This document shows, in pieces, positions 35,079 through 37,148 of a DNA stretch of 45,702 nt. How positions within the stretch are numbered: the stretch's first letter is position 1; every line of letters begins with the position of its first letter. The notes beneath the pieces were generated by a model. The model had not been told where the DNA came from and did no database searches. It saw nothing but the letters and a program-made list of their open reading frames with translations. The stretch spans positions 1-45,702 of the forward strand of contig JALHOE010000044.1 of assembly GCA_022843175.1 (NCBI GenBank). The letters are read 5' to 3'. The DNA is from Deltaproteobacteria bacterium (GTDB lineage Bacteria; Myxococcota_A; Polyangia; Polyangiales; JADJMO01). The translations under genes and the position numbers were made by a program.

Positions 35079-36029
35079 ATGGACGCGACGCCCGCAGACA
35101 CGCGGCACAATCGGTGGGAACGCAACTTCAACATCGCCGGCATGGCCGCGATGCACTTCGGCGCGGTCATCGCGCTGTGGATGGGCGCTCGCCCAATTGA
35201 TCTGGCGATCTGCTTCGGCTTGTACTTCATCCGCATGTTCGCGATCACCGGGGGCTATCACCGGTACTTCTCCCATCGCGGCTACAAGACGTCGCGGGCG
35301 TTCCAGTTCCTGCTCGCGCTCATCGGCACCACCGCCACGCAGAAGGGCCCGCTCTGGTGGGCCGCCGTCCATCGCCGCCACCACCGCGAGAGCGACACCG
35401 TGCGTGACGTCCACTCGCCCGTGCAGCGCGGCTTCTGGTGGTCGCACATGGGTTGGATCATCGCCAACGAGCACGAGGAGTACGATCCGAGCGAGGTCAA
35501 GGACCTCTACAAGTACCCGGAGCTCCGCTGGCTCGACCGCTACCACGTGATCCCGGTGCTCGTGCTCCTCGGCACCTGCACCGCCGTCGCCGGGCTCCGC
35601 GGCCTGTGCTGGTGGTACTGCGTGTCGACGGTGCTGCTCATGCACGGCACCTTCACCATCAACTCGCTCTCGCACGTGTGGGGTCACCGCCGGTTCAACA
35701 CCAGCGACGACAGCCGCAACAACCCCATCCTCGCGCTCGTCACGCTCGGCGAGGGCTGGCACAACAACCACCACCGCTACATGCAGACGGCCAACCAGGG
35801 CTTCTACTGGTGGCAGGTCGACATCGCCTACTACATCATCAAGGCGCTCTCGTTCGTCGGCATCACCCGCGAGCTCCGCCTCCCGCCCCAGCGCATCCTC
35901 GACGAGGGTCGCTTGGGCAACCCGGCCCCGTTCGTGAAGGTCGAGGGCGACAAGCCCGCCGTGGCGAAGCCCGCGCGCGAGCCCCGCTCGGTCCTCCCGA
36001 CCATCCCGCAGCCCGCTGACGCCGAGTAG
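35079..36029 (+). CDS. Acyl-CoA/fatty-acid desaturase
   Basis: A 316-residue integral-membrane di-iron desaturase of the delta-9 acyl-CoA (OLE1/DesC) type, introducing a double bond into acyl chains. All three histidine boxes are present: HRYFSH (about 62-67), HRRHH (about 99-103) and HNNHH (about 228-232), plus HVWGHRRF. Hydrophobic helices flank the boxes as expected. There is no fused cytochrome b5. The C-terminal 45 residues are a Pro/Ala/Lys-rich tail. It lies 72 bp upstream of selD on the same strand. Confidence 0.95.
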   Translation: MDATPADTRHNRWERNFNIAGMAAMHFGAVIALWMGARPIDLAICFGLYFIRMFAITGGYHRYFSHRGYKTSRAFQFLLALIGTTATQKGPLWWAAVHRRHHRESDTVRDVHSPVQRGFWWSHMGWIIANEHEEYDPSEVKDLYKYPELRWLDRYHVIPVLVLLGTCTAVAGLRGLCWWYCVSTVLLMHGTFTINSLSHVWGHRRFNTSDDSRNNPILALVTLGEGWHNNHHRYMQTANQGFYWWQVDIAYYIIKALSFVGITRELRLPPQRILDEGRLGNPAPFVKVEGDKPAVAKPAREPRSVLPTIPQPADAE

Positions 36030-36101: not shown

Positions 36102-37148
36102 ATGAGCGGATCGGATGTCGTGCGCCTGACTCACCTCGCGCACGGCGCGGGGTGAGCCTGTAAAATCCGCCCGGCGGATCTCGCGCAGGTGCTGCGCGCA
36201 ACCCAGGCTCTGTTGCCCGCCCTGCCCGTCGGCACGGTCGGCCTCTCCATCCCGGACGACGCCGCGGTGGTCCCGCTCCCCGGCGCGCCCGAGGGCACGC
36301 CGTCGCTCGTCCTCACGACCGACTTCTTCACCCCCATCGTCGACGATCCGCGCACCTTCGGGCGCATCGCCGCGGTCAACGCGATCAGCGACGTCTACGC
36401 GATGGGCGGAGTGCCGCGGTTCGCGCTCAACCTCGCGGCGTTCCCCACCAAGACGCTCCCGCTCGAGATCCTCGGCGCGATCCTGGCCGGTGGCGGCGAG
36501 GCGTGCGCGGCCGAGGGCGTCATGGTCCTCGGCGGCCACACCGTCGACGATCCGGAGCCCAAATTCGGCCTCTGCGTGATCGGCACGGTCGATCCCGCGA
36601 GGGTGTGGACGAAGCGCGGCGCGCGCCCCGGCGACGCGCTCGTGCTCACCAAGGGGATCGGCACCGGCGTCCTCGCCACGGCCTTCAAGCGCGACGCGCT
36701 CGCCCCCGAGGCCTACGAGGCCATGGTCGCCTCGATGAGCGAATCCAACCGACGCGCCGCCGATCTCGCGCGGGCGCTCGAGGTCCACGCCGCCACCGAC
36801 GTGACCGGCTACGGCCTCCTCGGCCATCTCCTCGAGATGCTCGGCGGCAACGACGTCGACGCCACCCTCGAAGCCGCGGCGGTCCCGCTGCTCCCCAACG
36901 TCCGCGCGTTGATCGAGGGCGGCTTCGTCCCCGGCGGCAGCGGCGCGAACCTCGCCTTCGTCGCGCCGCGGGTCGACTTCACGGTCGACGACACGACGCA
37001 GAAGCTCCTCGCCGACGCGCAGACGAGCGGCGGCCTCCTGCTCGCGATGCCCCGCCTCATCGCCGAGGGCTACGTCGCCGCGTACGGTCTGCCGGCGGCG
37101 ATCATCGGCTCGATCGCGAGCGGCAGCGGGCGCATCCGGGTGGGGTAG
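36102..37148 (+). CDS. selD: Selenide, water dikinase with in-frame UGA (selenocysteine)
   Basis: SelD makes selenophosphate from selenide and ATP for selenocysteine and selenouridine synthesis. The true start is ATG 36102. Codon 18 is TGA (36153-36155), read here as Sec, followed by GCC TGT AAA. The N-terminus thus reads VVRLTHLAHGAG-U-ACKIRPADLAQVL, matching the catalytic HGAGCGCK of E. coli SelD, with Sec at Cys17 and the essential Lys retained (Lys21). Full length is 348 residues, normal for SelD. Gly-rich VLGGHTVDDPEPKFGL and DVTGYGLLGHLLEM are typical. An annotation ignoring recoding would start at 36189 and lose the active site. SelA, SelB and the Sec tRNA are outside the window. Confidence 0.93.
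36153..36190 (+). promoter_or_regulatory. Sec UGA codon and candidate bacterial SECIS hairpin
   Basis: Directly after the UGA, ATCCGC (36165-36170), CCG and GCGGAT (36174-36179) form a 6 bp hairpin with a short loop. A lower CCTG/CAGG pairing (36157-36160 with 36186-36189) could extend it. Position and spacing suit a bacterial SECIS recognised by SelB. The loop does not show an obvious textbook guanine placement, so the exact fold is tentative. Confidence 0.5.

Follow-up and report, generated by a model that had tools for sequence, protein, structure and literature searches.

In the current study, we analyzed the window, a 45,702-nucleotide stretch of DNA from a Deltaproteobacteria bacterium (contig JALHOE010000044.1), and found that the product of its selD gene is almost certainly both a working selenophosphate synthetase and a selenoprotein in its own right, with the UGA at 36153 read as selenocysteine (Sec) through SelB and a downstream stem-loop. 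The intact frame across the UGA, the conservation of that UGA, the genes of the Sec machinery and a covarying stem-loop were seen directly; SelB binding, Sec insertion and catalysis would be expected from what is known of the family. Sec-type selD genes are already known in many bacteria, and in that sense the finding is correct but ordinary. The gene and the two codons that matter most for its annotation are as follows.

36102 to 37148, forward strand: selD, with read-through of the UGA, coding for selenophosphate synthetase (selenide, water dikinase); match to TIGR00476 with one TGA inside it, and orthologues with the same TGA.
36153 to 36155, forward strand: in-frame UGA, Sec codon 18; same codon position in the 51 Sec-SelD loci examined.
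36189 to 36191, forward strand: GTG, apical loop of the SECIS and codon of Val30, not a start; taken from the open reading frame list and the fold, with the protein match and the orthologues reaching further upstream.

The frame opens at ATG 36102, crosses a single in-frame TGA at codon 18 (36153-36155) and closes at the stop codon 37146-37148, just as the first-pass annotation had read it, and the read-through protein has 348 residues, Sec18 included. The motif around the TGA is HGAG-U18-A-C-K21 (HGAG-U-ACKI), so that both the N-terminal Sec and Lys21 of the selenide-handling loop are present. Sec18 occupies the position of Cys17 in the Escherichia coli enzyme; the earlier claim that Sec stands in for that catalytic Cys holds and, Sec-type SelD being a long-known kind, is no surprise. 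Against the selD family model TIGR00476, the read-through protein scored 366 bits (cut-off, 125 bits) over model positions 1-307 of 311, with the match beginning before the TGA, at residue 8; when the SelD family model was run against the whole genome, the same locus was recovered with exactly one TGA inside the match. The mechanical open reading frame list does give the form anticipated as the conventional call, 36189..37148 with a GTG start and 319 aa. A start at 36189 would drop catalytic Sec18 and Lys21 and thus yield a truncated selD without its catalytic residue; this GTG is the SECIS loop and not a translation start. Directly upstream of selD, at 35079-36029, lies a gene whose product resembles fatty-acid desaturases (95 bits with the DesA family model, short of the cut-off of 400), and no selenium genes adjoining selD were seen among the neighbors checked.

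To place the TGA in an evolutionary context, orthologues were sought in 379 genomes of the phylum, and the TGA was counted by hand in the best 150 SelD places listed, a sample in which one genome may occur twice and which favors genes resembling this selD. One TGA was present in 101 of these 150 best-matching places and none in the other 49. The closest orthologue among the matches listed, from the same family (73% identity), carries one TGA at the same codon, as do five orthologues from the same order (58-59% identity). Where the DNA was read, the TGA shares its column with the catalytic Cys of other SelDs, and at least one further genome of the same order (G341; 57% identity) has TGC in place of TGA, which indicates that Sec/Cys exchange occurs nearby. 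Judged from the sequences compared, conservation of the TGA is far beyond chance.

Folding of the stretch 3′ of the UGA gave two hairpins, of which the distal one is the SECIS.

36182 to 36198, forward strand: bacterial SECIS stem-loop, 7-bp stem CGCGCAG/CTGCGCG with loop GUG at 36189-36191, 33 nt past the UGA; from the fold, compensatory changes, a synonymous-codon null and the published model.

The published bacterial SECIS model calls for an apical loop of 3-9 nt with a G in its first two positions, an upper stem of 4-16 bp and a distance of 16-37 nt from the UGA (PMC13188914). The stem-loop at 36182-36198 lies within these constraints in its loop (GUG), its stem (7 bp) and its spacing (33 nt), and it covaries across Sec-SelDs, which bears out the suggestion that a SECIS should be sought in 36153-36200. 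For the comparison, 51 Sec-SelDs and 36 Cys-SelDs from several phyla were aligned without gaps from the UGA or Cys codon. In the Sec-SelDs, 84% of cells in the distal stem were paired, with changes on both sides at 6/8 pairs, whereas in the Cys-SelDs only 54% were paired; the covariation score of the two-helix structure in the Sec-SelDs was 0.320, versus 0.165 for shuffled sequences. The null model held the protein sequence constant and drew codons according to the usage of each gene, over 400 sets of synonymous sequences. Under this null, distal pairing was 0.841 versus 0.623 expected in the 51 Sec-SelDs (z 13.2, 0/400) and 0.542 versus 0.491 expected in the 36 Cys-SelDs (z 2.4); these z values are overstated because related sequences are not independent, although the contrast between Sec and Cys types is still clear. 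Taken singly, this selD shows SECIS pairing only marginally above that of synonymous codons (p ~0.06), and the strength comes from the whole set. A further 7-bp stem, pairing 36154-36160 with 36204-36210 and enclosing both hairpins, improved the single-sequence fold; it is not kept in relatives and was therefore taken as chance.

The first-pass annotation had staked its reading on the presence of selA, selB and selC, and all three were found above their cut-offs in the assembly (9.75 Mb, 470 contigs, 95% complete). The tRNA-Sec gene (selC; C76:29230-29325) scored 65.1 bits against the Rfam cut-off of 47, and ARAGORN agreed on a tRNA-Sec with anticodon TCA. A selA gene cut by a contig edge lies on contig C455 (389 bits; cut-off, 268), and selB on contig C405 (C405:4007-5044, L010; 279 bits; cut-off, 242) runs to the contig end. 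The C-terminal winged-helix SECIS-binding domain of SelB was not found in the assembly, either with PF09107 or with the C terminus of a same-genus relative as the query. That relative has a full-length SelB, with PF09107 at 58 bits; the likeliest account is that the domain is missing through an assembly gap, a genuinely truncated selB being the less likely alternative.

Two other explanations of the UGA have to be weighed. It might be that a Cys codon (TGC or TGT) was mutated to, or misread as, TGA, leaving a product that is dead or that begins at the GTG at 36189. An assembly in 470 contigs, and gene callers that would give the 319-aa form, might make one suspect as much, but the same TGA recurs in independent genomes at 73% and at 58-59% identity, the frame is intact over the rest of the protein, the Sec machinery is complete or nearly so, the SECIS covaries, and translation from 36189 would leave out the catalytic Sec/Cys and the Lys. 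Since relatives keep the TGA, it does not come from a sequencing error or mark a dead gene, and we give this explanation practically no credence.

Read-through of another kind, whether by near-cognate suppression or through a reassigned UGA, would place Trp, Cys or another residue at position 18. We regard this as very improbable: the TGA falls exactly at the catalytic Cys/Sec column, the downstream SECIS is seen where the codon is TGA but not where it is Cys, and a tRNA-Sec is present. Reassignment of UGA should moreover show up in many genes, whereas no internal stops occur in the family matches examined elsewhere (e.g., selA, selB and Fdh). The incompleteness of selB in the assembly is the one point in favor of such read-through, and nothing speaks for it directly.

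Insertion of Sec at codon 18, the reading that we prefer, would proceed as follows. SelB with Sec-tRNA-Sec would bind the stem-loop 33 nt downstream (loop 36189-36191), and the UGA at 36153 would thereby be read as Sec; Sec18 and Lys21 would sit in the flexible N-terminal loop that handles selenide and has it phosphorylated with ATP; and the selenophosphate would pass to SelA for the formation of Sec on tRNA-Sec, which would also serve SelD's own synthesis. The assembly yielded no second selD. Three other family matches, considered as a possible Cys-type SelD, scored 62, 48 and 31 bits, below the cut-off of 125, and represent general AIRS domains only. With only one selD found, synthesis of the enzyme would depend on its own product, the same self-dependence as in species whose sole SelD contains Sec.

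The prediction that further genes with in-frame UGA should exist led to two others in this genome, each a match above the cut-off to the Rdx/SelW family model with one TGA inside.

C425:1745-1951 (L140:1501-1707): SelW/Rdx-like gene; motif CVAU (CxxU), SECIS-like stem-loop with GGUCU as its loop.
C18:61092-61325 (L141:1501-1734): SelW/Rdx-like gene; motif CRAU (CxxU), SECIS-like stem-loop with GGA as its loop.

In both, the loop opens with G ca. 21-22 nt past the UGA. Like selD, these genes thus have an in-frame TGA and a stem-loop that conforms to the SECIS model, although their products are small CxxU redox proteins unrelated to SelD; they are probably the second (C425:1745-1951) and third (C18:61092-61325) selenoproteins of the genome. 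Together with tRNA-Sec, selA and selB, they support the earlier claim that this organism decodes UGA as Sec. Glutathione peroxidase (GSHPx, PF00255) had no match in the genome, and the best match to formate dehydrogenase alpha (836 bits) has no stop inside and is thus not a Sec-FdhA. No selenouridine synthase (MnmH/YbbB) scored above the cut-off in the genome, where only matches of 27-30 residues at ~25 bits were seen, so Sec synthesis is the sole use of selenophosphate found.

The second hairpin lies between the UGA and the SECIS.

36165 to 36179, forward strand: proximal hairpin ATCCGC-CCG-GCGGAT; from the fold, covariation and the synonymous-codon null, with a role that is inferred.

Sec-SelDs form this hairpin in one of two registers, which were picked after viewing these same sequences. 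In the best register, proximal pairing in Sec-SelDs was 0.869 versus 0.656 expected under the synonymous-codon null (z 11.5), whereas Cys-SelDs showed no excess (0.731 versus 0.726 expected, z 0.3). The pairing extends to codons for different amino acids: in Sec-SelDs, GAG (Glu) at Sec+8 occurs solely with CTC (Leu) at Sec+4 (15/15; Fisher p 2e-8, kinship ignored), GAT (Asp) solely with ATC (Ile) (6/6), and GTC (Val) solely with GAC (Asp) (3/3). One speculative possibility, which we are inclined to doubt rather more than to affirm, is that in many phyla the Sec-SelD mRNA carries a composite recoding element, made up of the canonical SECIS and a two-register proximal hairpin 9-12 nt past the UGA, that constrains the protein. 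Its role may be to set the pace of the ribosome or to place SelB at the UGA. If it is truly part of the recoding signal, mRNA structure would be dictating amino-acid pairs in an enzyme.

A 2006 report described Sec-containing SelD in Anaeromyxobacter dehalogenans, Geobacter and others (PMC1794560), and a survey covered bacterial Sec-containing SelD (PMC4561486), with RNAz recovering the bacterial SECIS of Sec-SelD genes (PMC4561486). With the Sec-SelDs (SPS2 type) of those texts (PMC1794560, PMC4561486), the protein described here has in common Sec where the catalytic Cys would be, a Lys three residues on, a SECIS shortly downstream and selA/selB/selC in the genome; the host lineage alone differs, besides the proximal hairpin, of which those main texts, supplements aside, hold no description. 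The hairpin is possibly less described, and it may already be known too; a literature search on tandem SECIS hairpins or on Sec use in myxobacteria gave nothing useful. With the Cys-type SelD of E. coli, this SelD has family, fold and Lys in common and differs in having Sec where the former has Cys; the 36 Cys-SelDs compared here are without the SECIS stem-loop.

What the analysis adds is a corrected selD annotation, for which automatic callers would give a truncated form without the catalytic residue, and a large-genome lineage that appears to decode UGA as Sec and has three or more candidate selenoproteins. Because the caller's start is the SECIS loop, and GTG stands in that loop in 11 of the 51 Sec-SelDs examined, the same misannotation may recur in those. 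Elsewhere in the phylum, Sec-SelDs of other genomes (L120, L121, L122, L125, L128 and L130) have other residues instead of the usual HGAG ahead of Sec and of the Cys that precedes Lys (e.g., QSAG-U-AAK, RTAG-U-AAK and PAGG-U-ARK), and these altered motifs suggest a divergent catalytic loop.
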